DNA from: Selaginella tamariscina
Lineage: Eukaryota; Streptophyta; Lycopodiopsida; Selaginellales; Selaginellaceae
Reading direction: 5' to 3'
NCBI GenBank assembly: GCA_003024785.1
Contig: PUQB01000170.1
Span: 24,545 to 88,544 of the forward strand
Length of the DNA stretch: 64,000 nt
The position numbers were made by a program, and so were the translations under genes. Shown here piece after piece: positions 4,203 through 54,566 of this stretch (positions are counted from its first letter, which is position 1; each line of letters starts with the position of its first letter). Below the pieces are notes generated by a model, which ran no database searches, had not been told where the DNA came from, and saw only the letters and a program-made list of their open reading frames with translations.

Positions 4203-4233
<31 letters not shown>

Positions 4234-4235
4234 AC

Positions 4236-4267
<32 letters not shown>

Positions 4268-27497: not shown

Positions 27498-28059
27498 AAC
27501 CTAGAATATTAAGTTAAAAGGATATTTAAACGGGATAAATCCCTAACGGAATATATTATAATCCTAATGCATTCCTAAACCCCTAAATTGTAATTTTAAG
27601 AGAGAATGTAAGAGAGTGAATCTTTATAAGTATTTTTAAATTTGTTTATAATACTTACTTGTAAACAGCACTGAAGGCGCCGTGCTTTCCTATAAAGAAT
27701 AGCACCCAATTTAATCTCGCCCTGAGATGATCACTATGAAGAAAAAAGAAGATCTAAAGAGTGAAAAATACAGAAATGAAGAAACCCTTGCCGGAGAAAG
27801 AACCAGATCTGAATTTGAGTGGGAAATTAAATGCATTTTCAAATTTACATGTCAGACCGACAATACATATGTCAGAAATTCAAATTTTTTAAAAAGAACA
27901 GAAAATAAAATTTAAGATGAGTTGACACAAATATCCGACACTCTGACATATATACTCTCCAGTTCCAATGAGTATTTTAAAATTGCATTTAATGTTATTC
28001 AAGTGATTCAAGCTGTTTAATATTACGAAATTTTAGACTATATTCTACATTCTTAGTAT
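27498..28059. other. Leader region of the inverted transposase copy
   Basis: Reverse complement of 6,300-6,843. The donor-like ACTTAC is at about 27,654-27,659, next to the GCACTGAAGGCGCC exon candidate. A 62-codon plus-strand frame here is antisense to this leader and is not taken as a gene. Confidence 0.4.
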
Positions 28060-28850
28060 TCAAGTATATATATTATATATATATATATATAAATATATAC
28101 TTATACAATAAATAAATTGATATATTATTATGTATCATTTAAAATATATTCATAGTCTGTTTATTATTATTATTTTCTTAATTACTCGAGTATTTAGTTT
28201 TCATTTCCTAGTATCAATGGGATATTCTTTAATATTTTATTAATATTTGAAGAATATTCTAATATTAAACCTGATTATCATAATTAAATTAGTCTTGTTC
28301 TTAATTATTGCAGTAATTATTCTACATTTGTATATATTAATGGGATTTTCTCAATTAATTTGTTATTATTTCAAGAATATTCATGTGTTAAACCTTATTA
28401 TCAATATTAAATTAATACACACTATGAACATATTTTAAATTATACATAATAATACATCATTTTATCTAATATATAGTCATATATAGTTTTAATAATATAT
28501 ATATTAATATCATTTCCTTAATTACTTGAGTAATTAATCTTCTTTATATTAATGGGATATTCTTTATTATTTTCTTATTATTCCAAGAATATTCCAATAT
28601 TAAACATGATTATGATAATTAATTTAGTTAATTATTTGAGTACTTAATTTACATTTGTATATATTAATGGGATTTTCTCAATTAATTTCTTATTATTTCA
28701 AGAATATTTCAATGTTAAACCTTTTTATCAATATTAAATTAATATATATTATTAAAACTATATATGGCTATATATTAGATAAAATCATATATTATTATGT
28801 ATAATTTAAAATATGTTCCTAGTGTGTTTATTAATATATTTTCTTAATTA
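28060..28850. repeat. ~330-bp AT-rich tandem repeat (inverted copy)
   Basis: Reverse-complement counterpart of 5,558-6,300. AAAATATATTC or AACATATTTTAAATTATACAT-type starts recur at a similar spacing. Confidence 0.65.
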
Positions 28851-29724
28851 TTCGATGTTTGTTTTGCACACATATATAAACACAATCATAAATTTACACA
28901 CGCATTACAAGAACTTACAAAAACACATATGCACACACATGCACAACCCTAAACCAAACTGAAGAAATAGGTTGCTTCTTTATTGAAAACATCATGTTCA
29001 ACGCATGTATGATATATGTACTCAATCTGTGTGACTGTATGTAACACATTGAATTTACATGTGTAATATTTATATTAAGCTTGTTGGGAGCAAACCCTAA
29101 ACCCTAAACCCTAAACCCTAATATGTAACACAATGAATTTACTCATGTAATATGTATGTATGTCTGTGTGTATACACGTGTGCATGTATATATGTGTACT
29201 CTGTATGTATATATGTGTACTTTCTGTCTTCTCTCATACATACACACCATGCATGATCCATGTTAATATGTACTGTCTCTCTTCTCTCAAACATATACAC
29301 CATGCATGATCTATAATATGTACTCGGTCTCTCTAATATTATGTACTAATATGTGTGTATGTCTGTGTGTATACACGTGTGTATGTATATATTATGTGTA
29401 TTAATATATGCAATGTGTATGTATGTATTGATACACATGAAACTTTAACACTCTCATGGACACACACATGTTAAATCCCTGCATGATTTATATTTTTGAG
29501 GTGTATGTGATACACCCACGCACACGCGCGCTAATAATATAATGAAAGAATATTCGTTTAGGGCGAATCTATATTTTATTCTTTTTAGGGTTTAAGTATA
29601 TTCTCAGAAGGAATATTCTATTAGGGTTAATATATATATTTAATTCCTTTAGGGTTTAGGTATATTCTTAGGGTTTCAAGAGGCGGCGGCTGTGAAATCG
29701 GCGGCGGCGGCTGTGCACACAGGT
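28851..29724. repeat. Central non-coding block with telomere-like tract (inverted copy)
   Basis: Holds the counterpart of the ~50-bp repeats (CATACACACCATGCATGATC about 29,237-29,310) and four CCCTAAA units at 29,092-29,121. No gene. Confidence 0.65.
29092..29121 (-). repeat. Interstitial telomere-like repeat (CCCTAAA)4
   Basis: Four tandem units of the plant telomere repeat on the strand expected for the inverted copy, at the position homologous to 5,070-5,092 and 47,311-47,335. Confidence 0.85.
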
Positions 29725-29730
29725 GAGATC

Positions 29731-29763
<33 letters not shown>

Positions 29764-30030
29764 ATATGTATAGGAGTGTGCGTATAAATTTATTTATTAG
29801 TTTTATCTCTCGCACACACACGCACACTCCTGTGTATGTATATGTGTGTGTGGGTGTGTGTTTGTTTATCTGTATGATTTTATTTGTTTCGCTCACACAC
29901 GCATACACACGATATACATATACACATATATATATATACCTATATACATATATACATACATATATTATGTGTACCAGTATCTGTAAATTTTTTTTTATTG
30001 ATCTATCTCTCCCACACACACGCACACTGC

Positions 30031-30097
<67 letters not shown>

Positions 30098-30159
30098 GTG
30101 TACCAGTATCTGTAAATTTTTTTTTATTGATCTATCTCTCCCACACACACGCGCACTGC

Positions 30160-30221
<62 letters not shown>

Positions 30222-30912
30222 CAATGCATATTAACAAATAGTATACAACACTAGTTTATATATATGCTTATATATTCATATGGGTTATATATCTATATAC
30301 ACACATATATATATGTGTGTGTTTATCTGTATAATTTTATTTATTTATTAGTTTTATCTCTCGCACACACACGCACACTCCTGTGTATGTATATGTGTGT
30401 GTGTGTGTTTGTTTATCTGTATGATTTTATTTGTTTCGCTCACACACGCATACACACAATATACATATACACATATATATATACCTATATACATATATAC
30501 ATACATACAACACTAGTTTATATATATGCTTATATATTCACAGACTCTCTCTCTTTCTCTATAGATTATATATCTATATACACACATATATATGTGTGTG
30601 TTTATCTGTATAATTTTATTTATTTATTAGTTTTATCTTTCGCACACACACGCACACTCCTGTGTATATATATGTGTGTGTGTGTGTTTGTTTATCTGTA
30701 TGATTTTATTTGTTTCGCTCACACGCATACACACGATATACATATACACACATATATATACCTATGTACACACATATATTAGGTGTACCAGTACTGTATA
30801 ATTTTATTTATTTATCTATCTCTTGCACACACACGTACACTCCTATACATACATACATACATACATATATATATATATACACACACACATATATATATGT
30901 GTGTTTTTATCT
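29725..30912. repeat. CA/TG and TA microsatellite block (inverted copy)
   Basis: The longest microsatellite block. It has internal duplications: a (CA)n(TA)n unit with GTGTACCAGTATCTGTAAAT occurs twice (29,968-30,110 and 30,097-30,220), and a ~310-bp unit starting ACACTAGTTTATATATATGC occurs at 30,248 and 30,507. No gene. Confidence 0.85.
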
Positions 30913-30924
30913 CGCTAAGCCCCT

Positions 30925-31325
30925 CGAGCGGGATTAATCCCGCCGCTATAGGTTTATAGCCTCGGCGGCGGGATTAATCCCGCCGCTATATGGTTGGGGC
31001 CATGGGCGGGATTAATCCCGCCGCCGAGGCCCTTCACGCAGGCTATGGGCGGCGGGATTAATCCCGCCGCTCTACGAAACCGAAGAGCGGCGGGATTCAT
31101 CCCGCCGCCCATAACCTGCGTGAGGGGCCTCGGCGGGGATTAATCCCGCCGCTCACCCATGCCCTGCGCGGAATGCGGGATTTATCTCGCCGGCAATGGC
31201 CTGTGTGAAGGTTCTAATGGGCGGGATTAATCCCGCCGGATTCCGCGCAGGGCATTTACAGGGGATGGCGGGGGATTAATCCCGCCGGGGTCGTAGGCGG
31301 GGATTAATCCCGCCGCCCAGGGAAT
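30925..31325. repeat. Palindrome array L remnant (inverted copy)
   Basis: About 10 units, mostly intact. It ends abruptly at about 31,325, joined to the methylase-like gene, so roughly half of the array and the ParB-like arm seen at 42,650-44,680 are missing. Confidence 0.9.
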
Positions 31326-31329
31326 TCAC

Positions 31330-32742
31330 GCAGTTCAATCTACAAAGGATGTAGACAACGATTTCAAGCTCACATGGTTGAAGCCTTTAAATGGAACAAC
31401 GATGGAGGAGATGGAAGTCTTGGCTGATTTGATGATCGATGGCAAACTACAATTAATAACAGCAGCCCAACCTCTCCTTTTCATCTCAAGGCAATGGAGT
31501 TGAAGACGGTCAGGCATTTCAAGGAGTGGTTGGGAATACACTGCCACAAACTGGGTTGGACCTCGACTTCAAATATGAAGAGTTAGCAAATATTTGCATG
31601 TGACGAACGATGATATGCTTGTCGAATGGGTGAACCAATCGGAAGATCTAGGCAAGAATCTATTGCACGCCAACGCCAAAAAGGAGAACATTGGGATGAC
31701 GCCTTCTCTTATGGCAGTCCTTCAGCAGCGGAGAACCGAATTGAACCTTATAAAGGAGGATGCTACGAATCACGACAAGCCCTACAGATGTTTGTTGTTA
31801 GATTTGGAGACTTTATGGGTAATATCACTGCTTGTAGGAAACCGTTTCAATTGTTCGTGATGGATCGGCGGGTGTCAAAAAATCTTTCGACAGATAGGGC
31901 ACTAGAGGATTTGGTGGAGAAACTTAGCCGTGCAAGCATATATAGAAGGTATTTATTATTAAATTCATGCTTGCGCTCTTCACTGATACCTACTTTTTCA
32001 GGTATTATTTCTTAATTCTTGCTCATGTCACCGATACTTTTGCCTTTGCCTTCGCCAAGAAGAATAGACATCGTTGGACAGGATTTATATGAACGATGCT
32101 AATCCCAAGTGCATTGATACTGTTGTTCACTTGGTTGTTAGGAATGCGCCAAACAATTTCAGCTTCCAAATGACTGGCCAGACATCTGTTTGCACTCCAA
32201 CGGCCCTGAACCTCCATCCGATACACCGATAGGTATGAGTGACGTATTCGGCAATGTACGTTATCCAAACATTACAAGTCAAGCGGCACGGAGCATCGTC
32301 AACTTGATCAGGGGTCCTCACAGTGATGCGTGGGTTTTTGACTACTGCACTAGGGGGTCCGTCTTGAAGGAGTGTTACCTTCGGCATACATGTGTGTTTG
32401 CCGTGAGAAGGATAAGACCATGGTTGAGGACCTGAACAAGTGGATAGATTGGGTCTCAACTGAGTACCCAACGAATCCATAAAGGCGTATTTGAGAAAGT
32501 TCCCTCCAGATAAGTGCGATAGCTCTGAAGGTGAATCTGGTTCAATCTCGGAGTCTGAGAACGAACATCAATCAGATATTAGACCGGAAGTTATCTCGAG
32601 GAGTACAGAACATTCGCACACTCCAGGACCCATGGAAACATCAATAGAAGATGCAGAAGATCTTGAACCATCTCACAAGCGGCTTAGACCTTCTTCGCCT
32701 CATTCAGAAGGTAATAGCGAAGAAGAATTGATAATGAATTGA
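31330..32742 (+). pseudogene. Methyltransferase-like gene, N-terminally truncated
   Basis: Homologous to 41,234-42,650 of the best element copy. It begins in mid-gene right after palindrome repeats, so the ParB-like part is lost. Parts in order: EEMEVLADL region, a helical region with LVEWVNQSEDLGKNLLHANA (about 31,620), a segment YRCLLLDLETLW where amino-methylases have their catalytic Pro-Pro motif, an intron at about 31,948-32,000, AHVTDTFAFAFAKKN, then GPHSDAWVFDYCTRGSVLKE (about 32,313-32,370; SAM-binding motif I-like) and an acidic Ser/Glu tail ending EEELIMN. Broken in several places. Function is inference. Confidence 0.4.
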
Positions 32743-32929
32743 TAGAGTGATGAATAGTTGTAAATGAGTGTAACATAAGGCATTTTTTGTATATTTCTTT
32801 TATATTTGTACAGAAAATAATTCTCAAGGATTAATGAAGCTTTTAGTTCAAACATGGGTCACACATTAACAAGGTAAATAATATACCTTAATAATTTTAA
32901 GGTCAGCTAATTATCATTTTGCAGATGTA
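32743..32929. other. Spacer between methylase-like and NIF-like genes
   Basis: Short AT-rich spacer with ACAGAAAATAATTCTCAAGG, conserved in all three copies. It may hold the 3' end of the first gene or an intron, if the two parts form one transcript. Confidence 0.4.
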
Positions 32930-34193
32930 ATGAAATAATTGAGAACATGATTTTCAGCATTGCCATGAGGTAAGAGAGGGGTTTGGCGACAATTTCTTGT
33001 GCCACATGTCAGAATGACAGAGTTCATGCAGGAAATGGATAATAATGCAGCTCAAAACATCGTTACCATGGGGGCCACTTCAGTTTTTGCATCATCATTT
33101 TTATTGGCTTCAGTTCCGAAATCAATTTCTTCAGCGCATGCAATATCTGAATCTTGTAAGGATGATGTACAATTAAATGATGAAGGGATAGGCAACGAAA
33201 TAGTGGCAACGGATAAATGTGAAAGGGAGCAAACAAGTGATTTGCAAAGTATTCAAGAGGCAACGCTATCTCATGTTACTCATGGCCATATTGTGTTGTT
33301 GGATGTCAATGGTGTTCTGCTTCATCGACAAAGGCCCAGGATAGAAAAAAGAAATCAAACAAGGAGATTTCATTCCTTGTCATGGTAAATTTCGATATGA
33401 TATTATTTTTCGTCCAGGGTTGGATCGTCTCTTTCAAAAGCTTAAGGAGATGGGTGCGCTTGTGGGGATTTGGTCATGCATGCAGATTCATAACTTAACA
33501 CCGCTGTTGAGTTTACTTAAGAAACATTGTAGTGTTGCAGAAGAGGTGATTCGTAAAGATTGGATTTTTGACCAGCGAATGTGTCATAAACCTCTCGAAT
33601 TTCACAATATAAGAAAGGAAAGCAAGCCATACTTCTTCAAGAATGAAAGAATAATTGGGACTCATGGGGAGATCAGTCGCTTAAGGATAACGAAGAATGC
33701 ACATATCTTAGTAGTAGACGACTCTCCTCAGAAGGCTATGCTCAACCAAAACATTGCTTGTATTCATCCAATCACTTTCGATCCATATTCTGATACCGAT
33801 ATCATGGATGAGCTAGTGAACTACTTGGATACGTGCCTCAGAAAGAAGAATCTCGAAAATTTTTGTGAGCAGTATCCACCGTATCATACATTTCCTGAAG
33901 CTTTTCTTTCTCGTGATATTGAATTTTATAAAATGAAGGATAGCAACCGGGCGCTTTATAATATTATTCTTAAGGAACGTCAGTTTTTAGATGAGCCTTT
34001 ATGCAGACCTTCTCTTATCACATCTTATGTATTAACAAGGATGGCAACTCCCAATTGCATTCGTGAGAGTGTTAAGTGGTGGCAACAACATCAAGATATT
34101 GACCAAAATGATTTGATTAATCCGGAGAGTGATGATTTAGACAAAATGAAAAGATTTCTTTGTATGATAGAAAGAAAGTATTTAAAAAATTAA
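32930..34193 (+). pseudogene. FCP1/NIF phosphatase-like gene, best-preserved copy
   Basis: The phosphatase domain runs from LLDVNGVLLHR (about 33,293-33,325) through FRPGLDRLF (33,410 on) and VGIWSC to VVDDSPQKAML (33,711-33,745). A 257-codon open frame covers 33,420-34,193. The FCP1/NIF family uses Asp-x-Asp at motif I; here the second Asp is Asn (DVNG), which is common in the plant subfamily with DLNG. The DD of VDDSP (metal site) is present. A frame break between motif I and FRPGLDRLF is evident. The leader is Ser-rich and Lys/Glu-rich. Its partner upstream is the methylase-like gene. Likely inactive as it stands; its role in a transposon is unknown. Confidence 0.65.
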
Positions 34194-35071
34194 TATGTTG
34201 ATAAGAAAATGATTTCATTTGTAATTATGTTTGATAGTATTTCTTCATTATTGTAAACTATTTTTAGAATAATATGAATATTCTAAGATATTTTAGGAAT
34301 ATTCCTTACTAAGTAAGGTTATTGAAGGATTAATTAATTAATTAATTAATATTTAAGGCTTAATTACATATTAATTAAATATTAATTAATAATTAAAACT
34401 TAAGTATTAATTAGTAATTTATTTATATTCCCATTTTCACGTATCATGCCCACTTTAGTTACAACGTGCATATGAGTTAAACAACTAATTGTAGGGCTGT
34501 ACATTATAACCATGTTGTAATGGTGAACTTTCAAATGGGAGATTGTAATTAAGAACATAAGCATGATTTTCTACAACAGCTTCCAATCTAAAGAACTCTA
34601 TAAAAAATCTTGTTCTCCTCTAACCCACAACATATTTTTAAAATCGAAATAATTTTCGAATGTTCCTTGCAACCTCAAGTATATCTCATCCAACTTACAT
34701 TATATTATTAACTTTTTAAAAATCTCTTCGACAAGTTCTACAACTTCAAAAATACTTCTCATTGAAATATCACTAGTTCAAGTGCCTCATGCTCAATACT
34801 ATATTAAAATAAATCATTAAAACCCAAAATGATTTGTCTTAAGAATTTAATTTAATTATTCTAAAACTTATTTAATACCCTTTTATAATAAATAGAATGG
34901 TGCTTAATTTTTTGGACCAACCACATACCTATTCTTCATTCAGTACTTCTCGATTTTTAATCCTTGGATTTTTTTACTTACAACATATTTTCCAGATTAT
35001 TGTATTTGTAAATATTTTCAATTCTCTTAAATTTATATTACACGTATAAGTAAACACATGCAAGTGCGACA
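34194..35071. other. AT-rich spacer with transposon end beside the P450 gene
   Basis: The terminal repeat TTACAACGTGCATA is at 34,459-34,472. Right of it the sequence matches the P450 3' flank from about 12,105 on; about 740 bp of that flank seen in the other loci is missing. No gene. Confidence 0.6.
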
Positions 35072-38850: not shown

Positions 38851-39566
38851 ACTTAATTTCAGATGACTCATGAGTTTCTCGGTTACATAGTTATTTGTAA
38901 TTACATGAGAATAGACTCAACAGTCACCATCATTGTCCACCAATCAACAGCACATCAATTTATAGTTCATCAGTCAATTGTAGATCAATCACTATTAACA
39001 CTTATGTGAATCACTTGTCTACTTGTCTTTAAAAAAAAATAATAATAATTGTTGGAACTATTTTGAAGAAGTATAAACAAATAGATACAATGAAAAAAAA
39101 AAAAAAACTTATGTTAATAATCGATCTCACTTTCGCTGATGAGAATATCTTCAACCGGCTTGTTTGAGGTGGCGAGGTTGATGTCGAACGTGTTTGTTGT
39201 TGTTGTTTGCTGTGGCTCTACTTTAACATGTTGTCCGGGCTCAACCTGTTATCCTGGCTCTACTTCAACCTGTTGATCCATAACCAAAGGCGAATCTAGG
39301 CTATTGCTCGTCTGCACACGACTAGACCGTCACTCAATAAATCCTTGTAATCTTTCAGGGCTTCTAGCTTCTGCTCAATCCCGGCAGTGCAATAACCGGC
39401 CATCTATATGTGCTAAGGACATGCTTATGGATGAATACCAGACGCGAATGCTCCTTATTGTATGCGTACTAGTAGGAAACACACCGCCAAGAATTGCTTG
39501 TCTAGAATGTGTGTATTTGTTTCTTTCGATATCTAGATCTTGTTAATATATCAGTATATAATAAAA
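38851..39566. other. Spacer with a possible minus-strand coding relic
   Basis: Minus strand at about 39,118-39,275 reads QQTTTTNTFDINLATSNKP after repeated VEPGQ-like units, a low-complexity tail with no family assigned. The rest is AT-rich with A-runs at 39,027 and 39,093. Confidence 0.3.
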
Positions 39567-39590
39567 TATGCACGTTGTAACTAAAGTGGG
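39567..39590 (+). repeat. Left terminal inverted repeat of the large transposon
   Basis: Begins TATGCACGTTGTAACTAAAG. It is the reverse complement, with 3 differences in 24, of 53,188-53,211. The same end follows the NIF-like gene in the other copies, at 2,481-2,494 and 34,459-34,472. It lies about 220 bp beyond the NIF-like stop codon. Confidence 0.6.
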
Positions 39591-39809
39591 CATGATACAT
39601 GAAAATAAAATATATAAATTACTAATTAATAATTAAGTTTTAATTATTAATTAATTAATAAATTAATCTTTCAATAATCTTACTTAATAAGGAATATTCC
39701 TAAAATATTTTAGAATATTCATATTATTTTAAAAATAGTTTACAATAATTAAAAATACTATTAAACATAATTATAAATGAAATCATTTTCTTATTAACAT
39801 GCTAATTTT

Positions 39810-41055
39810 TTATAAATACTTTCTTCCTATCATACAGAGAAATCTTTCATTTTATTTAAATCATCACTCTTTGGATTAATTGAATCATTTTGGTCAATAT
39901 TTGATGTTGTTGCCACTACTAACACTCTCACGAATGCAATTGGAAATTGCCATCCTTGTTAATATATAAGATGTGATAAGAGAAGGTATGCATAAAGGCT
40001 CATTTAAAAATTGACATTCCTTAAGAATAATATTATAAAGTGCCCGGTTGCTATCCTTCATTTTATAAAATTCAAAATCACGAGAAAGAAAAGCTTTAGG
40101 AAATGTTTGATACGGTGGATACTGCTTACAAAAGTTTTCGAGATTTTTCTTTGTAGTTCACTAGCTCATCCATGATATTGGTATCAGAATATAGGTCGAA
40201 AGTGATTGGATGAATATAAGCAACGTTTTGGTTGAGCATAGCCTTCTAAGGAGAGTCGTCTACCACTAACATATGTGCGTTCTTCATTATCGTTAAGCGA
40301 CTGATCTCTCATGAGTCCCAATAAATCTTTCATTCTTGAAGAAGTATGGCTTGCTTTCTTTTTTATATTGTAAAATTCGAGAGGTTTATAACATACTTGT
40401 TGGTCAAAAATCCAATCTTTACGAATCACCTCTTCTGCAACACTACAATGTTTCTTAAGCAAATTTAACAGCTGTGTTAAGTTGTGAATCTGCATGCATG
40501 ACCAAATCCCCACAAGCGCACCCATCTCCTTAAGCTTTTTGAAAGAGACGGTCCAACCTTGGACGAAAAATAATATTATATCAAAATTTACCATGACAAT
40601 GAATGAAATCTCCTTGTTTGATTTCTTTTTTCCTATCCTTGGGCCTTTGTCGATGAAGCAGAACACCATTGACATTCAACAACACAATATAGCCATGAGT
40701 AACATGGGATAGCGTTGCCTCTTGAATACTTTGCAACTCACTTGTTTGCTCCCTTTCACATTTATCTGTTGACACTATCTTGTTGCCTATCCCTTTATCA
40801 TTTAATTGTACATCATCCTTACAAGATTCAGATATTGCAGGCGCTGAAGAAATTGATTTCGGAACTGAAGCCAATAGAAATGGTGATGAAAAAATTGAAG
40901 TGGTCCCCATGGTAACAATGTTTTGAGCTACATTATTATCCATTTCCTGCATGAACTCTGTCATTCTGACATGTGGCACAAGAAATTTTCCCCAAACCCC
41001 TCTCTTACCTCATGGCAATGCTGAAAATCCATATTCTCAATTGTTTCATTACATT
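39810..41055 (-). pseudogene. FCP1/NIF phosphatase-like gene (best element copy)
   Basis: Same layout as 32,930-34,193, inverted. Motif I reads LLNVNGVLLHRQ (about 40,655-40,690), so both catalytic Asp positions are Asn. The leader frame at 40,581-40,979 runs without a break through motif I to CHGKF. A second frame covers LDRLFQ-like sequence, VGIWSC and KDWIFDQQ. The VDDSP region (about 40,250) is disturbed. The stop is TAA at 39,810-39,812. It follows the ParB/methylase-like gene on the same strand by about 180 bp, suggesting a shared transcript or tandem genes. Confidence 0.55.
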
Positions 41056-41233
41056 TGCAAAATAATAGTTAGCTGACCTTATAATTATCAAGGTATATTA
41101 TTTACCTTATTAATGTGTGACCCATGTTTAAACTAAAAGCTTCATTAATCCTTGAGAATTTATTTTCTGTACAAATATAAACGAAATATACAAAAATGCT
41201 TTATGTTACACTCATTTAAAACTATTTGTCACT

Positions 41234-44200
41234 CTAAGAACTTATTAACAATTCTTCTTCGCTATTACCTTCTGAGTGAGACGAAGAAGGTCTAGGCTGC
41301 TTGTGAGATGGTTCATGATCTTCTGTATCTTCTGTTGATGTTTCCATGTGTAATGGAGTGTGTAAATGTCTGTACTCCTCGAGATAACTTCCGGTCTAAT
41401 ATCTGATTGAAGTTCGTCCTCAGACTCCGACATTGAACCAGATTCGTCTTCAGAGCTATCGCACTTATCGGGGGAACTTTCTCAAATACTCCTGTATGGG
41501 TTTGTTGGGGTAGTCAGTTGAGAACCTCTCTATCCACTTGTTCAGGTCCTCAACCATGGTCTTATCCTTTTCAACGGCAAACACATGTATCCGAAGGTAA
41601 CACTCCTTCAAGACGGACCCCCTAGTGCAGTAGTCAAAAACCCACGCATCACTGTGAGGACCCCTGATCAAGTTGACGATGCTCCGTGCCGCTTGACTTG
41701 TAATGTTTGGATAACGTACATTGCCGAATACGTCCCTCAGCTATCGGTGTATCGGATGGAGGTTCAGGCCGTTGGAGTGCAAACAGATGCCTGGCCAGTC
41801 ATTTGGAAGTTTGAAATTGTTTGGCGCATTCCTAACAACCAAGTGAACAACCGTATCAATGCACTTGGATCAGCATCATTCATATAAAATCCTGTCCAAC
41901 GATGTTTATTCTTCTTGGCAAAGGCGAAGGCAAAAGTATCGGTGACATGAGCAAGAATCAAGAAATAAATACCTGAAAACGTAGTATCAGTGAAGAGTGC
42001 AAGCATGAATTCAATAATAAATACCTTCTTTGTACATGCTTGCACGGCTAAGTTTCTCCACCAAATCCTCTAGTGTCCTATCTGTCGAAGGATTTTTTGA
42101 CACCCGCCGATCCATCACGAACAATTGAAACGGTTTCCTACAAGCAGTGATGTTACCCCATAAAGTCTCCGAATCCAACAACAAACATCTGTAGGGCTTG
42201 TCGTGATTCGTAGCATCCTCCTTTATAAGGTTCAACTCGGTTCTCCGCTGCTGAAGGACTGCCATAAGAGAAGGCGTCATCGCAATGTTCTCCTTTTTGG
42301 CGTTGGCGTGCAATAGATTCTTGCCCAGATCTTCCGATTGATTCACCCATTCGACAAGCATATCATCGTTTGTCACATGCAAATATTTGCTGACCTCTTC
42401 GTATGTTGAAGCCGAGGTCCAACCCAGTTTGTGGCAGTGTATTCCCAACCACTCCTTGAAGTGCCTGACCGTCTTCAACTCCATTGCCTTGAGATGAAAA
42501 GGAGAGGTGGGGTGCTGTTGTTAATCTTAGTTTGCCATCAATCACCAAATCAGCCAAGACTTCCATCTCCTCCATCGTTGTTCCATTTAAAGGCTTCAAC
42601 CATGTGAGCTTGAAATCGTTGTCTACATCCTTTGTAGATTGAACAGACTTAGCCTTCGGCGTCTTACTGGGTTTCTTTGCAGACTTCTCTGAGGGCTCCC
42701 TTCACTTGTCTGCTTCTTCTTCAGTGTTCCTTTTGCAAAGGATTCCATAATCCCCAACCATTTGGCAAAGATCCTATCCTCGGGACAAGAAATCAACATC
42801 ATCAAAAAGGATGTTTCCTTCCCGCCCACCTGGGCAAAATCAACTGCTACAATTTCTTCAACTCTCTGAAAAAAAAGACAGATTAATATACCGGCGAGAT
42901 AAATCCCGCCCAAACAATTTGCTTACCCGGTATCCGCAATTGTGTATTCCCTGCAGTAGCTCTTTGTGGTCGCTGAAGAGATTCCCACACGGCTCGCGTG
43001 TGTTTGAACTTCTCCCATATTTTGCTGTTGTAGTGGTTGGTGTCTGCAGCGTCCCATTCCGCCGATAACTTATGGTACTGCTCGATTGTGAGATTCGGCT
43101 TCGCTAAAAATGCCGATCTTTTTCAGCTTCTCACGGGTATGCTCGGAAAGTTTTGTTGCCATCGTTCCTTTGTTGTGTTCATCGAGAAGTCGTTGGGCTG
43201 CCGTTATTGTGTGCTGACTAATGATGTAGTACTTGATTGATTTTCTATTCTCCGTCTGAATTTTCATTTGTTCCGGTGTTGTGATCCACACTTTGTCAGC
43301 GCCTTTGTTTCTCTCGTAGTATGGGCACAAAACAGCATTATGTGGAACGGTGTAAGAATTGTCGTCCTTCATCTTCTCCATGAGCTCAGCTACACGTTCC
43401 TGGTTGAGTGGCCTGTAATTGAAGTTTGGGTTGACGCTGCAATACTTAACCCTACACTCGTAAATCCTATCATCCAACATCATTTCCTTGTGGCTTATTG
43501 CAGCATGGATGCCACAGGTGCAGCTGACAAAACGACTGATGATTTCTTCTACGATCCAATCAACATGTGTGATCCCCGATTGATGCTGTTCTAATGTTCT
43601 CGGCACACTCTTCCAGCTCCCGAAATTTTCTAAGCAAATTGAACGTGATCTGTAAAGAACCTGAGACCGAGCCACCCTCTCAATCTCCCTATGATGTCGC
43701 TGTGTTCTTCTTCAATGTGAAGAGGGACGATTGCTCCACTTGTGGATGTTCTGTATTGTGAAGCAATCTCTGCTGAGAATACACCTACTCGATGAGTCTG
43801 AAGATCTTCGAAGTAGACATCTAATTGGATCCCCTCCATAGATGGGCTTTCATTAGTTGAAGAAGAACTCCACATCAACATCGTTAGTGAACACGTGAAC
43901 GTCATTATCCACAAGTCGACAAGACCACCCAAATTAATGTTGTAACTGGCGACCTCTGGATCCGAAACGTGACATTGGATGGAACAAGGCATATGTGTCG
44001 AGCATCGTTCAATCTGGGTTCGCAGCATGCTTTCGATGCTTTACTAGCACACCCACTTTCCATTGTTTTGCTTGTCCATGCGATGTGACAAGGTTAGTTT
44101 GACAGCAACCATGGTTGTTCCAATGCGCTTCCCGTTTAGTTTGAAATATGGCCAAGTTGATTCCAGAATCCCCTTGCCCATCTCTTCTCCTGCTCTCGTC

Positions 44201-44527
44201 TTCAATGTCACCTCAATTCCACATCTGAATACAAAATGAGTAATTCTTCAAGCACATATCCGAATATAACAGATTTTATTTTAATTCTTACCCAGAATTT
44301 GACGACTCCATACTAATGACTGAATCTCCTTGTTTGATCAAATCGTCCTTCTGCAAAATAATACATATGAATACAATCATATAAAAACGCACACACACTT
44401 GTATAAACCCGAATATACAAAAATAATACACAGATAAATTCACATACACCCTGGTTTGTCTGAGAGAAGTGGACGAAATTAACTGTCCAAAGCTCACATT
44501 TGTGCTAGTGCAAAAGAAAGATAACAT
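41234..44527 (-). pseudogene. ParB-like plus DNA-methyltransferase-like gene
   Basis: The longest version of this gene. From the 5' end: a start at 44,525-44,527 (MLSFFCTSTNVSFGQ), two small introns, an unrecognised domain (CGIEVTLKTRAGEEMGKG; then 43,630-44,028), a ParB-like region (RPLNQERVAELMEKM about 43,375-43,420; YYIISQHTITAAQRLL about 43,190-43,240), an intron with a palindrome unit (42,893-42,910), then the methylase-like part (LLLDSETLWGN about 42,170; GPHSDAWVFDYCTRGSVLKE about 41,600-41,660; VFAVEKDKTMVEDL). ParB-then-methylase fusions are known in phages and prophages. The usual Gly before QH and the Pro-Pro catalytic motif are not seen. Frame interruptions are present, so it is non-functional or spliced in a way I cannot resolve. 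Assignment is inference from motifs. Confidence 0.4.
42893..42910. repeat. Single palindrome unit inside a ParB/methylase-like gene intron
   Basis: GGCGAGATAAATCCCGCC, a two-mismatch relative of the array unit, lies between a donor (GTAAGC on the minus strand) and an acceptor (TTTTTTCAG). It is more than 1.7 kb from the nearest array. Confidence 0.8.
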
Positions 44528-44567
44528 TTCGTTTTAGAACCACCACAAATGTGAGCTCTGGACAGTT
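44481..44567. repeat. 24-bp inverted repeat over the ParB/methylase-like gene start
   Basis: Arms 44,481-44,504 and 44,544-44,567 are reverse complements with one mismatch (core CACAAATGTGAGCT), separated by 39 bp that contain the ATG at 44,525-44,527. In RNA this would form a stem-loop holding the start codon. Confidence 0.8.
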
Positions 44568-44681
44568 TTACAGAGTTTCCTAGCTTTTACTCGAAATATT
44601 ATGATAAGATGATAAAAGTAAATAAAATAGATATGCAACTTATATATACTAATACACATATATATTCACATGGAAGGTGCG

Positions 44682-45585
44682 GCGGGATTAATCTCGCCAC
44701 CCCTTCAATGCCTCCTGAAAGAGTGGGCGATTAATCTTTCCACCTTTCTGGAGGCCCTGAACGGGTGTGCGGGATTAATCCCGCCACCCTTCTCGGTCTC
44801 AGAGAGAACTGAACAGGATTTATTTGGCACACCCCTTCAGGGACTCCAGAAAGGCGGCGGGATTAATCTCGCCCACCATGTAAGGGATGGTGAAATGAAT
44901 CTCGCCACCCTTCTTAGTCCCCTCCATTGGTATGTTGTAAACCTTCTACGTCTCAGACAGAAACGTTTAGGATTGGTCCGACTCACCAATGGAGGAAAAA
45001 AAAAGGGTGGCAGGATTCATCCCTCCACCAGGCATTGAAGGCTCGACAGGATTAATCCCACTGCCCAACCCCTTCCCGCAGGCCATGTGCGGCGGGATTA
45101 ATCCCGCCACCTAGGCCCTTTAGACAAGCATTTGGTAGCGGGATTAATCCCGCCGCACGCCCATGCCCTACGCGAAATCCGGCGGGATAAATACTGCCGG
45201 ATTTCGCGCAGGGCATGCGTATGCGACAGGATTAATCCCGCCGTCTAGGCCCAACACACAGGCCATGGGAGGCGGGATTAATCCTGCCGCTCTTCGGTTA
45301 GCCTCATGGGCAGCGGGATTAATCTACTGCTCATGAGGCTAACCGAATAGCCTGCTTGAAGGGCGGTGGGATTAATCCTGCCGCTCATGACCTGCATGTA
45401 GGGCCTCAGAGGCGGGATTAATCCCGCTGCCGAGCCTCTAACCATATAGTGGCGGGATTAATTCCCGCTGCCCGCGAGGCTAACCATATAGCAGCGGGAT
45501 TAATCCCGCCACTCGCAAGGCTAACCATATAGCGGCGGATTAATCCCGCCGCTCGCAGGGCTAACCAAAGAGTGGCGGGCCACTG
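44682..45585. repeat. Palindrome array L (best element copy)
   Basis: About 18-20 units, the counterpart of 2,559-3,562, with more decayed units (for example GCGGGATTAATCTACTGC). Located in the divergent interval between the ParB/methylase-like start and the rest of the centre. Confidence 0.9.
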
Positions 45586-46126
45586 CTACACACATATCTA
45601 TATCTATATGTATATGTGTGTGTAGGAGAGTGCGTGTGTGTGTAGACAAATCAGATAAAATTATACTGATACACACACATATATATATGTATATGGTATA
45701 TCGTATGTGTGTGCTAAATAAATTAAATTATACAAATACACACACACACACACACACACATATGTATATATATGTATATGTATATACATGAGTGTGCGTG
45801 TGTGTGCGAGAGATAGATAAATAAATAAAATTATACAGATACTGTACACATAATATATGTATGTATATATGTACATAGGTATATATATATATGTGTATAT
45901 GTATATCGTGTGTATGTGTGTGTGAGCGAAACAAATAAAATCATACAGATAAACAAACACACACACACACACATATATATATATAGGAGTGTGCATGTGT
46001 GTGAGAGATACAATGAACAAATCAATAAAATTATACAGATACACACACACACACGCATATATATATACAGGAGTGTGCGTGTGTGTGCGAGAAATACAAT
46101 GAACAAATCAATAAAATTATACAGAT

Positions 46127-46168
<42 letters not shown>

Positions 46169-46415
46169 GTGTGTATAGATATATATATATATATGTATAG
46201 GAGTGTGTGTGTGTGTACGAGAGATAGATAAATAAATAGAATTATACAAATATTGGTACACATAATATATGTATGTATATATGTATATAGGTATATATAT
46301 ATATATATATCGTGTATATGCGTGTGTGAGAGAAACAAATAAAATCATACAAAAAACAGGAGTGTGCGTGTGTGTGCAAGAGATAAAATTAATAAATTAA
46401 TAAAATTATACAGAT

Positions 46416-46451
<36 letters not shown>

Positions 46452-46640
46452 CTGTGTGTGTGTGTATATATATATGTATGTATATATGTATAGGAGTGTG
46501 CGTGTGTGTGTGAGAGATAGATAAATAAATTATATTATTAAGATATACACAAATATAAATGTATATGTGATTAAAAATAAATAAATAAACTCAGGAGTGT
46601 GCGTGTGTGTGTGTTAAGAGAGAGATCTCACCTGTGTGTG
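45586..46640. repeat. CA/TG and TA microsatellite block (best element copy)
   Basis: Counterpart of 3,563-4,400 with longer runs; a ~105-bp unit with AGGAGTGTGCGTGTGTGTGCG occurs twice near 45,985 and 46,075. No gene. Confidence 0.85.
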
Positions 46641-47870
46641 AGAGAGAGGGAGATCTCACAGCCGCCGCCTCCGCCGCCCTTGCTTCTTGAAACTTAAGAA
46701 TATACCTAAACCCTAAAAGGAATAGAATATATATTAACCCTAATCAAATATTCCTTCTAAGAATATACTTAAACTCTAAAAAGAATAAAAGATAAACAAA
46801 TATTCTTTATTATATTATTAGCGTGTGCGTGTGCGTGGGTGTATTAAATACACCTCAAAATAAAAATCATGCAGGGATTTAACATGTGTGTGTCCATGAG
46901 AGTGTTAAAGTTTCACGTGTAGCAATATATATATACACACATAGTATTATACACATAGACATACATACATATTAGTACATAATATTAAAGAGACAGTACA
47001 TATTATGGATCAATTGCATGGTGTGTATGTATGAGAAGAGAGACAATACATATTATGGATCATGCATGGTGTGTATGTATGAAGAAGAGAGACAGTACAT
47101 ATTATGGATATGCATGGTGTGTATGTATGAGAGAAGAGAGACAGTACATATTAACATGGATCATGCATAGTGTGTATGTATGAGAGAAGAGAGAGAGTGT
47201 TAACAAATTAAATTCATACACATTGAATATATTAGTACACATATATATGTACACACGTGTATACACACAGACATACATACATATTACATGTGTAAATTCA
47301 ATGTGTTACATAGGGTTTAGGGTTTAAGGTTTAATATTGTAACATCAGTACATATTATGGATCGTGAATCATGGCATTGTTATGTATGTATGAAAGAGAG
47401 ACAGGCTACATATTATGGATCGTGATCGTGCATGTATGTATGTATGAGAAGAGAGACAGGCTACATATTATGGATCGTGATCATGCATGGTGTGTATGTA
47501 TGAGAGAAGGGATATGCATGGTGACACTGTGTATGTATGAGAGAAAAGAGAGAGTGTTAATAAATTAAAATCATACACATTGCATATATTAGTACACATG
47601 TGTATATACATAGACATATATATATATATTACATGTGTAAATTCAATGTGTTACATACACACAGACTGAGTACATATAGATCGTTGAACATGATGAATAA
47701 AGAAGCAACATATAATTTCTCAAGTTTGGTTTAGGGCAATGTGCATGTGTGTGCATATGTGTCTCTATAAGTGCTTTAATGCGTGTGCACGTGTATATAT
47801 AAATTTATGATTGTGTTTATATATGTGTACAAAACAAACATCGAATAATTAAGAAAATAATATTAATAAA
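46641..47870. repeat. ~50-bp tandem repeats and telomere-like tract (best element copy)
   Basis: Units with TACATATTATGGATC and GTGTATGTATGAGAGAAGAG run from about 46,985 to 47,560. A TTTAGGG tract is at 47,311-47,335, with one unit mutated to TTTAAGG. No gene. Confidence 0.7.
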
Positions 47871-47879
47871 CACACTATG

Positions 47880-48560
47880 AACATATTTTAAATTATACAT
47901 AATAATATATGATTTTATCTAATATATACCATATATAGTTTTAATAATATATATTATTGATAATAAGGTTTAACACTAGAATATTCTTGAAATAATAAGA
48001 ATTTAATTGAGAAAATCCCATTAATATATACAAATGTAGATCAAGTACTGAAATAATTAATTATGATAATCATGTTTAATATTGGAATATTCTTGGAATA
48101 ATAAGAAAATAATAAAGAATATCCCATTAATATAAAGAAGATTAATTACTCAAGTAATTAAGAAAATAATATTAATATACACACTATGAACATATGTTAA
48201 ATTATACATAATAATACATCATTTTATCTAATATATAGTCATATATAGTTTTAAATATATATATTAATTTAATATTAATAATAAGGTTTAACATAGAAAT
48301 ATTCTTGAAATAATAAGAAATTAATTGAGAAAATCCCATTAATATATACAAATGTAATAATTACTAAAATAATTAAGAATAAGACTAATTTAATTATGAT
48401 AATCAGGTTTAATATTAGAATATTCTTTCAATATTAAGAAAATAATAAAGAATATCCCATTAATAGTAGGAAATGTAAATTGATTACTCAAGTAATTAAG
48501 AAAATAATAATAATAAACAGACTATGAATATATTTTAATTAATATATAATAATATATCAA
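47880..48560. repeat. ~330-bp AT-rich tandem repeat (best element copy)
   Basis: ACATATTTTAAATTATACAT at 47,881 and its relative at 48,190 give a period a little over 300 bp, matching the other copies. Confidence 0.65.
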
Positions 48561-48779
48561 TTTATTTATTGTATAAGTATATATATTTATAATATATACT
48601 TGAATATTCAGAATGTAGAATAATTACTAAAATTTTGTAATATTAAATAGCTTGAATCACTTGAAGCACATTAAATGCAATTTTAAAACACTCATTGAAA
48701 TTGGAAAGTATATATGTCAGACTTCGGTTATTTGTTTCAACTCATATTAAATTTTATTTTCTGTTCTTTTAAAAATTTC

Positions 48780-49162
48780 GAATTTTTAACATAAGTATTG
48801 TCGGTCTGACATGTAAATTTGAAAATGCATTTAATTTCCCCTCAAATTCAGATTTGGTTCTTTCTCGGCAAGGGTTTCTTCATTTCCTTATTTTTCACTC
48901 TTCAAATTTTCTTTTTCTTTATTGTGATTAGCTCAGGAGCGACATTAAATTGGGTGTGCTATTGTTTATAGGAAAGCATGGCGCCTTCAGTGCTGTTTAC
49001 AAGTAAGTATTATAAACAAATTTAGATATAGTTATAAAGATTCACTCTCTTACATTCTCTCTTAAATTTAGAATTTAGGGGTTTAGGAATGCATTAGGAT
49101 TATAATATATTCCGTTAGGGATTTATCCCGTTTAAATATACTTCTAACTTAATTTTCGGTTA
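48780..49162 (+). other. Conserved leader and putative first exon of the transposase gene
   Basis: Here an ATG is present: ATGGCGCCTTCAGTGC starts at 48,978 and meets the donor GTAAGT at 49,003. The two other copies read ACGGCG. If it is real, translation starts here and palindrome array R (49,163-49,812) is intronic. Confidence 0.35.
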
Positions 49163-49812
49163 GCCGGGGCGGCGGGATTAATCCGGCCATCTTTTTTTCG
49201 CCTCTTCGAAGTCTCTCAACTGATAAAGAGTTACCTGAATTTATTAAAAAGAGTTGTCGGTGGGATTAATCTCGCCAACCATTTTAGGAGGCAGAGAAGG
49301 GGTGGTGGGATTAATCTCGCCACCACTTCCTTGTTTTAAATATTTGTGGGCAAGATTTATCCCAAGATCTCTTTGAAATCATAGCTTCGGAGAGAGTTGT
49401 GGCGGAATTAATCCCGCCACCTATTCCTGTCGTCAAAGTTATGGGTGGGATTAATCCGCCGGTACTTCCTCGTCGGAGGGAATCTGCCATGGGATTAATC
49501 CCGCCGCCTCTCCGACGAGGAAGATCCGGGGGCGGATTAATCCCGCCGCTTCTTCCTCATCGGAGGGAGTTCGCAGCAGGATTAATCCCGCTGCTTCTTC
49601 TTCGTCGGAGGGAATCTGCGCGGGATTAATCCGCCGCCTCTCTCCGATGAGGAAGATCCGGCGGCGGGATTAATCCCGCCGACTCTCTCCGATGGGGTAG
49701 AGTCGATGGGGATTAATCCCACGATTCTCTCCGAAGGGGTAGCTTCGTTGGCGGGATTAATCCCGTCGACTCACTTGAAGGGGTAGAGTCGGCGTCGAGA
49801 TTAATCCCGCCC
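49163..49812. repeat. Palindrome array R (best element copy)
   Basis: About 14 units with recurring TCTCTCCGATG-type spacers. It is shorter than the sister array because a segment near 49,210 is missing. Confidence 0.9.
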
Positions 49813-49959
49813 ATCAGTTGTATTAATGAAGCATGAGATATTATCTTTATACATAATTATGTATTATTGCACATGCATATTATTAAGTAACCGTAGTTCA
49901 GATTTCTTAAAAATATTGCATATACAGATATCATAAATAACACAATTATTTATGTTCAG

Positions 49960-52659
49960 GACAATATGTTTAATACTGGAGATAAAGTATGTCTTCTTCG
50001 GAACAATGAGATAGTTGGCACTGGAACTGTGGAAGTTCGAGATGATAATGCATCATGTCACAATTTGCCCAAGGATCTTATGTGTACGTATGGGTGAACA
50101 CCATTTATAAGCATGTTGACATTCCAGGAATGGAATTTGAGGAGGGTTCTCCTGTATTGTGGAAATTGGATGAAGTCAAGGCTGACACAGAATATGCAGA
50201 GTCATAAACAAACAGTAGCACGAGTTTACCAGATGATGGCTTTCCTGCTGTGATGGATGAGGTGATTCTCTTTCTTCATGAGATTGAGGTTGGGAGAGGC
50301 ATCATCACAGCTATAAATCCAATGGAAGCAGTGTCAGAAGAAAAACTAGGGTCCGACTTCGTGGGTGTAGTTGTGATAGAGGTTTCACTTAATGGCACAT
50401 TGCATCCTAGTCCCTCATGAGGTGGCGAACATCTGAATTGAGACGGCAAGATGGTTCAACATATTCTGGATTGGATTTCAATAATAACAACTCGGAAGAA
50501 CAACTCATATTTGAAGAGGTTCCTTGCATTGGTCCTATTGTAAGAAAAAGGCGATTCATGGGTTGTAGATCTTCCCTTACAAGTTTCAGTAAGAGGGCAA
50601 GATGAATCCTACATCTTCCAAAAGTGTTACGAGCATTTCCACGATTGACTACTGCAAGAAAAAGTGTTGTCAGAAGGCAAACCGGAATGAAATTACCCAA
50701 TGTAGACATGTCTTTCGTACGCTCACCCAAAAGTAAAGGCATGAGTTTGTATATGCTGCACTAACTGGATGTATTGATGGAATGGCCTCGGACACAGGTT
50801 ATCAGAGTACATCCATGGTATTAATAAGGTGGCCATTTGCTTCAAAGCTTGGTACAGTATATACGGGATCCCAAAGACCACGTTTTTTTCCGTCGGAGGG
50901 ATGAGTGGCTAGATGGAGCGCGAACCTCAGTACATGGGAACACTTGCTTGGTCAAAACCCGCTCTCACATTATGGTAGTCATAAAGATACTCAAAGCTTT
51001 TGTGGAAGCAAATACAGACAGGATGCCTCACAAATGCCGAACCACAAATGCAGGGGTCAGGGAAAATCTCAAGGTTTTGCCTTCAATCTACACTCAATTG
51101 AAGCTGTGTGAACATGTGAACAAGTGCCTCAGTTTGATGGGGCTCCAAGCAATCTGCATTGGTACCTTCAACAACATATGGAATATTCATTTTAAGGATG
51201 TGGAGATTGCAAACCACTCTAGCTTTTCCAAGTGTGACACTTGTACATCATTGAAGGCTGCAGAGGCTTGTGCAAAAACCTTGGTGGAGATCACTGCCAT
51301 TCAAAAGAAGATGTAGGCCCACATGATTGCACAACAAACTTGCCGGTCTCAGTACTATGCCACCGCATGCTTTTTGTGTCACGCCCATCAGAGTACTTGT
51401 GCTTGATCCATGACAAGATGGATCATTCAAAGATCAGCATTCCAAAGCTCATTGCAACACCAAAGTGCCTTGGAATGTCATGAAACTTCTAATTTCATTA
51501 ACATGTGTGCTAACACATGAACATGGTTGTGGGTCATATGGACACTTTTCACTTCCACATTGGTCTAGCGACTCCAATTTCACTATTGGGTCGTTAGCCA
51601 TGTGTTTCAAAACCTTGAAACCCACTTACAGATAAGTCCTATCAGTGATCTCAAGGTGAAGAAACAACACCTTCAACCTTTACATAATGCTCTCATGAAC
51701 ACATCTGCACTTGAGGCTACTTGGGAATATGAGAGGCATTGTCAACAGCCTGCACAAAAAACAGATGGCCTTGTTGAGAGTTCAGGTTCAGTGGAGGGAT
51801 CTAGCTCAAATAGTGTATAGTGTCCTTAACATCAAATAAGCTTCCTCGTCATTTGCTTTTACAGATGGATAATTGTGCAGGCGAGAACAAAAATAGGTAA
51901 ATCATTTTACTTAAGGGGTTAATGCTCTTCAAAAGTGGAGAGAATGGAAAGCCACTTATCCCAGAAGGACAACCATACCTATTCCATTGAGTGCCCAGCT
52001 CAAGGAACAAGAGGTTATTATTGATGACATCAAAAAATATGTGGCATGGGTTCAAAAATCGATGCCAAAGAATTCTGATAAGGCAACTGGTTACTCAGAA
52101 CTATATAAGTATGCGATTGACTATTGGGAGATTGTTGTTCGAGAGTTGGAAGGGCCTACTGTCACAAGTGCAGAATTACAACACCCTTTTTGGCCTAAAA
52201 CAAGGTGGCGAGAGGAGATTGAAATGACATCACTAAGCACAAAACGACATAAAAGCCAGTAGTGATGTGGAAGTGCAAACCCCACACTTTGTTGGATAAA
52301 GGAACAAAAAACCTAAAGTATACTTTGATTGCTTGCAAGGATGTTCAAAATAATGATGGTTTCATTACTCCAGATGTGTTATATAATCAGCCTATTTGGG
52401 ATGGGTTAAATTATCGACACACCTGAAGTAATTACAAAAATAGTATGGTTAAGGTTGTATGGTTCAAACACAAAGAAGGCGACACGAGAAGGAGAGCGAA
52501 AGATATAATGGATGCCTAAAGAAAACATGGTCTCCTAATCAAAAAGACTCAGCATGTTTTATAAATGTTAAATCGATTCGATATGGGTGAATGCCAAGAA
52601 GCGTTGATAAAGTCACGATTAACAAAACTGCAAGGGAATGTATGTTTTCTGAAGCTTAA
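49960..52659 (+). pseudogene. DUF7869-type transposase, internally deleted
   Basis: Same gene as 7,700-10,802. It keeps the CCKKKCC-like region, HTH region, CDTC zinc motif (about 51,232) and the second Asp block MDNCAGENKN (about 51,865). A deletion of about 430 bp runs from the intron (after ACTTAAGG near 51,917) to GGGGTTAATGCTC, removing the whole GHTHEDID block. Frame shifts are also present along the first exon, and a TAG interrupts KKM (51,314). It cannot make an active enzyme. Confidence 0.7.
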
Positions 52660-54566
52660 AACAATTACAAAATTATAAAATATCATATATTTATTATTCA
52701 TAATTATTATAAACTCTTTAAATAGTTTTGCTTAACTATATAAATTTAACTATATAACTATATAAATATAAACCCTATATATGGAAGATTGACTATATTA
52801 TTATAGGATTTTGTATATATTTATATATTATTACTACTATAAATTTTTAATTAATAATGTTAATTATTAATTAACAAGGGGATTCGGTAGGTTGTTCCAT
52901 GAGATATTTTTAAATATTAATATTTTAATAACAACATCAATATTTATATAATGTACCTCTTATACTCTTCCTTAATTGTTATATTAGGCAATATATTATA
53001 TAATTTAATACTTTTTACTTTTATAATGTTATTAATTTTTGATCCATCATGTTATAATTTATTGTAGAGTCAAATACAAAACAGAATATTCTAAAAGAAT
53101 ATTCTGTTTTCAAAATAATATTTTAAAAGAATATTTTTTAATATTAAAAAATGCTAATTAAATAGTTAAAATTGCTAATTATGTCGTCCCATTTTAATTA
53201 CAACTTGCATAAATCATGTGTGGTTCATCTACATTGTTCAGACTTCGATTTGTGATAGTGAAATACACCATAAAAGAAAACACTACGGATTAATAATTAA
53301 ATTAAATTAATAATAAAATAAATTAAATTAAATATTTCTATAACATGTTTAGACTACAATGTATTTCACTAGTTTGTGGCCATAACCACACTCATACTCA
53401 TACTCTTCCTCACAAAATAACTGCCCTAGCCGCTCCTCAGCACTACCACAATCCATCTGTGATTCCATTCGATCCCTCGCAGAATATTTCCAATTTTTCC
53501 TCTCAAAATCTAATTTAATAACTTCCTTACTCAATTATTAATATTAAACTGTGGCTGGTTTATGCTACAGTGGTTTCAATGCTTCAGACGCTGTCTCTCC
53601 GTAATAATCTTTATCTGCTACAACATTCTTGATCCACTTCAACATCATCTACTTCAGTTACATGGAGCTCATGAAAATGCATTACCGTGTCTACACCATT
53701 AACATAATCTTCCACATAGTCTATAATATGGTCTTCCACTTGGTTTGTAGCATGAACCTGTATTCTCTTACGTGGTAAAGCATGTATGTGGAAATAAAAA
53801 TCAGACTTGGAAAATGAGCAACCATATTCGTCTTATTTTACTAAGCATGATTCACATTTGCAAGAATAATACTTAAAACAAACGAACCATTATGCCATTT
53901 AAAAATTAATAGACATCTATAACAAAAGCATGTATGAATAAGTCAAACCTTAAACAGCTAATTGTAGGGCTGTACATTATAACTATGTTGTAATGGTGAA
54001 CTTTTCAATACCATTCAACTGGGAGATTGTAATTGAGAACATAAGCATGATTTTCTATAACAGCTTCCCATTCAAAGAACTCTATAAAAAAATTCTTGTT
54101 TCTTCTCTATTGGTACCCACAACATATTCTTAAAGTTGAAATAATTTTCAAATGTTCTTTGCAACCTCCAGTACATTTCATCCAAATTACATTCTTTTCA
54201 ACAAGTTTTACAACTTCTTCGAAAATACTTCTCATTGAAATATCATTAGTTCAAGTGCCAATTTTTTACCATGCTCAATATTATATTAAAATAAATCATT
54301 AATAACCCTAAATGATCTGTCTTACGAATTTAATTTAATTATTCTAAAACTTATTTAATACCCTTTTATAATAAATAGAATGGTGCTTAATTTTTTGGAC
54401 CCTATTCTTCATTCAGTACTTCTCGATTTTTAATCCTTGGATTTTTTTTACTTACACTAGTCAAGATCATTTATTACATATTTTCCAGATTATTTTATTT
54501 ATATATATTTTCAATTCTCTTAAATTTATATTACACGTAGAAGTAAACACATATGCAAGTGCAACA
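52660..54566. other. AT-rich spacer with transposon right end, P450 3' flank
   Basis: Counterpart of 10,803-12,690. The right terminal repeat ends at 53,211; the rest is P450 downstream sequence. No gene. Confidence 0.6.
53188..53211 (-). repeat. Right terminal inverted repeat of the large transposon
   Basis: Read on the minus strand it begins TATGCAAGTTGTAATTAAAA, matching the left end in about 21 of 24 positions. An identical sequence ends the first copy at about 11,340-11,363. It lies about 550 bp after the transposase stop codon. Confidence 0.6.

Follow-up and report, generated by a model that had tools for sequence, protein, structure and literature searches.

A probable Sola-like, multi-gene DNA transposon with paired palindrome arrays in Selaginella tamariscina

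Among described DNA transposons, Sola elements are given, in passages of PMC10741241, a 4-bp target duplication, a transposase with three catalytic aspartates (DDD), terminal repeats within 11-1124 bp and a size mostly of 2-9 kb with some above 15 kb; the same passages place them in the moss Physcomitrella and describe them as seemingly uncommon in flowering plants, and a portion of PMC6890710 tabulates copies for the fern Ceratopteris. Here we describe an element of comparable anatomy from Selaginella tamariscina, found in a stretch of 64,000 nucleotides (C472:24545-88544, where C472 is the contig PUQB01000170.1; the whole stretch is called the window below) and followed through 300.7 Mb of genome sequence in 1,391 contigs. 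In its copies the transposase follows the A-type end, and then come the non-coding centre, a second gene arm, a NIF-like gene and the C-type end. We give a probability of roughly 0.78 to its being a single Sola-like DNA transposon of the autonomous, cut-and-paste type, about 12-17 kb long, multi-gene and high-copy. The likeness to Sola, as far as passages describe that group, comprises the 4-bp duplication, the terminal repeats (about 24 bp here, against a Sola minimum of 11 bp), a size in the reported range and a candidate DDD motif, all compared by description, and on anatomy a Sola-like assignment fits best, membership itself being putative. The second gene arm, the NIF-like gene and the palindrome arrays go unmentioned in the Sola passages of PMC10741241. 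As Sola is described, then, it is the arm genes and the internal palindrome arrays that distinguish this element.

CACTA (En/Spm) elements carry arrays of repeats and encode multiple products. In passages of PMC10741241 they are large plant elements with short terminal repeats, CACTA/CACTG ends and a 3-bp duplication. The element shares with them its large size in a plant genome and its short terminal repeats; in contrast, its ends begin ATGCA, its duplication is 4 bp long, and its arrays are internal, beside the gene starts. VANDAL/MULE elements have a different transposase and longer target duplications. PMC10398659 describes VANC, a sequence-specific protein encoded by VANDAL/MULE elements that counters silencing; any likeness to it would be in mode of working only, since binding of the arrays by an arm protein is conjectural here. 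The preliminary description, made from the letters of the window, could point to no named plant element that combines these genes, and in the literature searched, partly through passages, we likewise met no description of one with these genes and palindrome arrays, although by its anatomy the element resembles the Sola superfamily, which is already known.

The ends define the element. The preliminary description had set matching 24-bp ends at 39567..53211; counted from ATGCA, the two ends of this copy (copy C) agree at 20 of 24 bases, and the boundary lies one base further in, giving a single element at 39568-53210 whose inverted ends begin ATGCA(C/A)GTTGTAA (Table 1). We scored the ends as the 14-mer TATGCA(C/A)GTTGTAA, with at most 1 mismatch in the window and exact matches in the genome, and used the pattern in reversed reading as the motif control. 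The window holds 5 matches (0.07 expected; 0 of 100 shuffles reach 5) and also 5 matches to the 24-mer when 3 mismatches are allowed (reached in 0 of 100 shuffles), and the genome holds 1,525 exact 14-mers (765 + 760) versus 2 for the control. That the same ends recur in other copies stands genome-wide, with corrections within the window: the A-type ends at 11363 and 53211 are one insertion, copied by a near-tandem duplication of 42-43 kb, because their flanking DNA matches too; copy B is without an A-type end; and the C-type end at 2494 is part of a second element, A', which is inserted in copy A and continues into neighbouring contig DNA.

With the termini set at ATGCA, the same four bases flank copy C on both sides, a match reached by 1.9% of random pairs when three registers are allowed, by 5.6% with nine and by 3.9% with local composition. 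Many different 4-mers flank the ends across many contigs, and ANNT stands directly before 771 of the 1,525 exact ends (frequency of A in the window, 0.317). Among the matches listed (100 of these 771), inward pairs 10-20 kb apart form a set chosen for its ANNT flanks: all eight pairs join a C-type with an A-type end, 11.9-16.7 kb apart, and all eight have identical 4-bp flanks (chance 0.134 per pair). A second sample, E1-E9, consists of every inward-facing pair separated by 5-25 kb in the 100 end places listed, seven of them C-A, one A-A and one C-C; E9 was left out of the eight because a third, internal C-type end with the same ATAT flank makes its C-C pairing ambiguous. In the seven C-A pairs (E1-E7), unselected for flank, the 4-bp flanks are the same in three (E1, E3 and E5) and ANNT stands at 9 of 14 outer ends. 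An empty site accompanies the nested insertion A': AGAT is present on both sides of A' and once at the matching site of copy C (ATTATGATA-AGAT-GATAAAAG). An inversion of copy A's arm was the first reading of this junction and was dropped when leftward extension revealed the nested insertion. The preliminary description had proposed looking for opposite ends 5-20 kb apart, target duplications and empty sites; such ends and duplications were found, and with them one empty site, that of AGAT. In one other locus (L026 266-506, C125:494565-494805), two inward C-type ends lie 240 bp apart with ATAT on both sides, a possible derivative resembling a miniature inverted-repeat transposable element.

The gene order recurs with the ends, which supports the proposal that a single DNA transposon carries both divergent gene arms. 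By tblastn with pieces of the window, E1, E2, E4, E5 and the A-end part of the composite E7 have the transposase beside the A-type end, with the arm genes and the NIF-like gene running towards the C-type end (E1 contains 2,500 N, and its first arm pieces are unmatched). NIF and transposase pieces are both present at all five loci that are new among the eight ANNT-flanked pairs. E5 has 98.2% identity with the single-element part of E7 (15,044 of 15,089 bases), 96.4% with E2, 95.1% with E4, 92.3% with E1 (9,733 bases) and 90.0% with window copy C (13,047 bases). Stop-free reading frames are found in 135 of 135 transposase tails (at least 99% identity; the best 135 of 6,300 candidates) and in 149 of 150 arm pieces (at least 96% identity; the best 150 of 4,625). 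A frame of 1,941 amino acids round an arm piece at C567, which looked like a fusion, was rejected since it runs into a stretch of N. No relatives in the viral contig and genome contig sets were confirmed by tblastn. Given its 1,525 exact ends and the many open gene copies in 300.7 Mb, a multi-gene transposon about 14 kb long would make up a major share of the plant's genome.

The DUF7869-type transposase proposed for one arm was confirmed by Pfam (Table 1), the best stretch on the 650-residue frame covering profile positions 52-75 of 192. Relatives extend to 1,074 residues, one of them from the fern Adiantum nelumboides; DUF7869 was found in six of the nine relatives scanned (E 4.1e-41 to 7.6e-48), and the domain is catalogued under this name alone, which was absent from the literature searched. 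The gene has a GT-AG intron after NKNR. An alignment of 19 rows shows conservation of three motifs, HDKMD, LQLDN and GHTHEDID, and the residues D526/D529, D664 and D704/D706 of the relative P0001 are kept in every row covering them (16, 13 and 12 of the 19 rows), the sole exceptions being V and S at 704 and 706 in one row. The three motifs are likely to represent a DDD triad, a candidate whose catalytic role is suggested by this conservation. The GHTHEDID stretch is absent from copy C, and copies A and B have a common frameshift just before it; the window copies are therefore probably unable to move themselves. The ratio of nonsynonymous to synonymous changes per site (pN/pS) in the transposase is 0.17 between B and A and 0.40 between B and C (third-position excess p 0.002 and 0.046), and in the arm piece at 42014-42520 it is 0.14 between C and B (p 0.004), a sign of purifying selection; these values support past selection on both. 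At the N terminus, residues 19-70 of P0001 (E 6.6e-4) and 14-70 of P0006 (E 0.0029) match Transposase_23 (TNP1/En/Spm) weakly, just below the Pfam cut-off.

On the other arm, the predicted NIF-like protein was recovered as well: PF03031 matches a copy-B read-through (E 7.9e-12) and an open genomic copy (E 2.3e-11), both above the cut-off, and a single copy-B frame scores 21.2 bits, just below the cut-off of 21.8. Active NIF/HAD enzymes carry a catalytic DxD motif. The frames here read LLDVNG or LLNVNG, and phosphatase activity is doubtful because DVNG stands in place of DxD. The ParB/methylase-like genes of the preliminary description could not be upheld. For ParB the resemblance is by eye, in an SGQHxxxAA motif within the YYIISGQHTITAAQRLL read by open copies. 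Broken and open frames, in tests limited by a lack of alignable relatives, gave no ParB or methylase match in Pfam, NCBIfam, PHROGs or PDB, and none by tblastn against phages and plasmids; no Pfam methylase was found for the gene pieces, no Pfam family at all on an open 273-residue frame, and no Pfam ParB match on an open 478-residue frame. One search of an 818-residue arm read-through against 5.8 billion proteins returned 0 matches at E 0.001, and hhalign against seven ParB proteins, with shallow profiles on both sides, gave a probability of 0.8%, outside the motif. Matches to PH_BUD3_C (E 0.0017-0.14, all below the cut-off) were taken as chance.

The proposed non-coding, repeat-rich centre is confirmed; it holds microsatellites and tandem repeats, is flanked by arrays, and has no Rfam match at gathering scores. 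These arrays consist of the 18-bp palindrome GGCGGGATTAATCCCGCC, two per element, each beside one of the two divergent gene starts. When up to 4 mismatches are allowed, a limit that favours the 18 palindrome positions, 86 of the 87 copies in the window lie in six arrays, and conservation per position is 86-100% in the core GGATTAATCC, compared with 30-60% in the spacers. Both arrays together hold 41 copies in E2, 36 in E4 and 47 in E5. Perfect copies number 27,128 in the genome, versus 0 for the control and about 0.001 expected at an assumed guanine-cytosine content of 40%. Among the matches listed (the first 100, all on contig C1), 12 of 17 clusters are paired, 3.1-3.8 kb apart, and the median of palindrome spacings below 60 bp is 44 bp. 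When the literature was searched for the palindrome, for its inner 12-mer and for the C-type end, one paper came up, on a cell-invasion protein, with a single occurrence of the inner 12-mer.

These features suggest how the element may work. A transposase of about 1,050 residues, with its DUF7869 domain and candidate DDD triad, would cut at the ATGCA(C/A)GTTGTAA ends, and the element would insert at, and so duplicate, a target of 4 bp that is often ANNT. The arm with the transposase extends to the A-type end, and the divergent arm, with one or more accessory genes and the NIF-like protein last, to the C-type end. Each arm starts beside an array of palindromes spaced about four helical turns apart. 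These arrays may be bound by a regulator that the element itself encodes, one that drives the two divergent promoters or lifts their silencing. A more specific version, speculative and on balance unlikely, is by analogy with ParB on parS: an arm protein, sequence-specific and possibly a highly diverged ParB-like one, might load on its own element's palindromes (about 25-47) and keep the divergent promoters open or counter silencing. If so, there would be some 27,000 genomic binding sites for a transposon-encoded protein. The paired arrays offer a concrete and testable handle on the element's control of its own expression.

Several alternatives deserve consideration. The window might be read as two separate elements, one with the transposase and one with the arm, adjacent by chance, since in copy A the arm adjoins the centre in inverted orientation, and E8 has transposase pieces without arm genes and E9 arm pieces without transposase. 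We regard this as very improbable: the inverted arm belongs to a nested element whose own transposase and A-type end lie beyond the window, the same order is found in E1, E2, E4 and E5, and both end genes occur at the five further loci. On contigs with ends fully listed, an exact C-type end lies 2.5-3.1 kb from the arm piece m1 in 13 of 40 listed places; in 6 of the 40 an exact A-type end stands 11.3-12.5 kb from it, and in 0 of 40 does an A-type end occupy the C-type position; an exact A-type end lies 507-511 bp beyond the transposase tail in 8 of 17 listed places. These counts need exact ends, so mutated ends are scored as misses. Scarcely credible, too, is that the copies are segmental duplications of a dead relic and make up no mobile family. 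The ends are spread over many contigs with many different 4-mer flanks, matching duplications and an empty site, and the best-scoring genomic tails and arm pieces are near-identical and open, and E5 and the single-element part of E7 are closely alike over their length; what a relic would explain is the window itself, where copies A and C lie within the near-tandem duplication and the genes are broken or cut off.

Membership in a better-known class, Tc1/mariner-like or CACTA-like, is improbable. TA followed by TGCA in the end motif makes a TA duplication formally possible in copy C, but the A' junction and the empty site fit AGAT without an indel, the 4-bp flanks match elsewhere, and half of the flanks are ANNT. 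For CACTA there is the weak Transposase_23 match in P0001 and P0006; against it, the termini are neither CACTA nor CACTG, and 4 bp are duplicated instead of 3. Set against these alternatives, the single Sola-like transposon is the preferred reading, and some observations count against it. Flanks differ in E2, E4, E6 and E7; E3, E6 and E7 are composites of more than one copy, leaving only E1 and E5 with matching flanks among four simple copies. Signs of selection are uneven: pN/pS is 0.90 for the transposase tail between A and C, 0.42-0.80 (weak) for NIF, and 2.70 against B and 0.44 against A for the arm piece at 41468-41740, while non-coding controls give 0.78 and, on few changes, 0.31. The case for the catalytic triad is one of conservation, and the Sola assignment is one by description.

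Table 1. Coordinates in the window of the parts of the element and its copies
Feature	Position	Strand	Basis or remark
Nested element A', C-end arm, inside copy A	1..2493	+	own A-type end beyond window, near C472:15641
Right part of outer copy A, with arrays, centre, transposase and A-type end	2494..11362	+	homologous to 44607-53210, segmental duplication
Target-site duplication AGAT of nested A'	2494..2497	.	empty site in copy C, 44607-44610
Copy B: C-type end, NIF-like gene, arrays, centre, transposase; cut off at 24386	24386..34471	-	sequence comparison
Longest transposase frame of window, 650 residues, copy B, start of DUF7869	24699..26651	-	Pfam PF25273 E 2.5e-12
Left target-site duplication AAAT, copy C	39564..39567	.	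flank comparison
C-type terminal inverted repeat ATGCACGTTGTAACTAAAGTGGG	39568..39590	+	end matching
Broken NIF-like (HAD) phosphatase gene, copy C	39833..41009	-	frames; Pfam PF03031 on other copies
Broken arm gene(s), copy C, earlier label ParB/methylase-like, no family match	41468..44040	-	frames
Left array of GGCGGGATTAATCCCGCC, 15 copies at <=4 mismatches, copy C	44681..45550	.	motif search
Non-coding centre: AT-rich, microsatellites, 49-bp and 338-bp tandem repeats	45551..49170	.	repeat analysis
Right array of GGCGGGATTAATCCCGCC, 12 copies at <=4 mismatches, copy C	49171..49811	.	motif search
Broken DUF7869 transposase gene, copy C; about 0.4 kb missing (GHTHEDID motif in copy A)	49897..52675	+	frames, copy comparison
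A-type terminal inverted repeat ATGCAAGTTGTAATTAAAATGGG	53188..53210	-	end matching
Right target-site duplication AAAT, copy C	53211..53214	.	flank comparison

The copies in the window have a local history of their own. Their genes are broken by frameshifts, deletion or truncation, and copies A and C are alike because of their P450-like flanks and the 42-43 kb duplication. If a clock is assumed, copy A groups with C in the flanks (2.2% substitutions vs 4.9 and 5.9) but with B in the transposase (1.3% vs 3.5 and 4.3), a discordance suggesting that movement or gene conversion followed the duplication. Cytochrome P450 exon fragments are repeated at 13507-13914, 34723-36322, 38589-38878 and 55302-55874, forming a cluster, duplicated locally, in which the elements have inserted; the last has PDB matches to P450 120, taxadiene 5-alpha hydroxylase and CYP90B1, and the other three were placed by DNA similarity. 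Copy B breaks off within about 10 bases of the end of the right-hand one of two repeats resembling long terminal repeats (15957-16309 and 24033-24378, about 81% alike), with no clear target duplication at that point. The two repeats bound about 8 kb, over much of which the AT skew is strongly positive.

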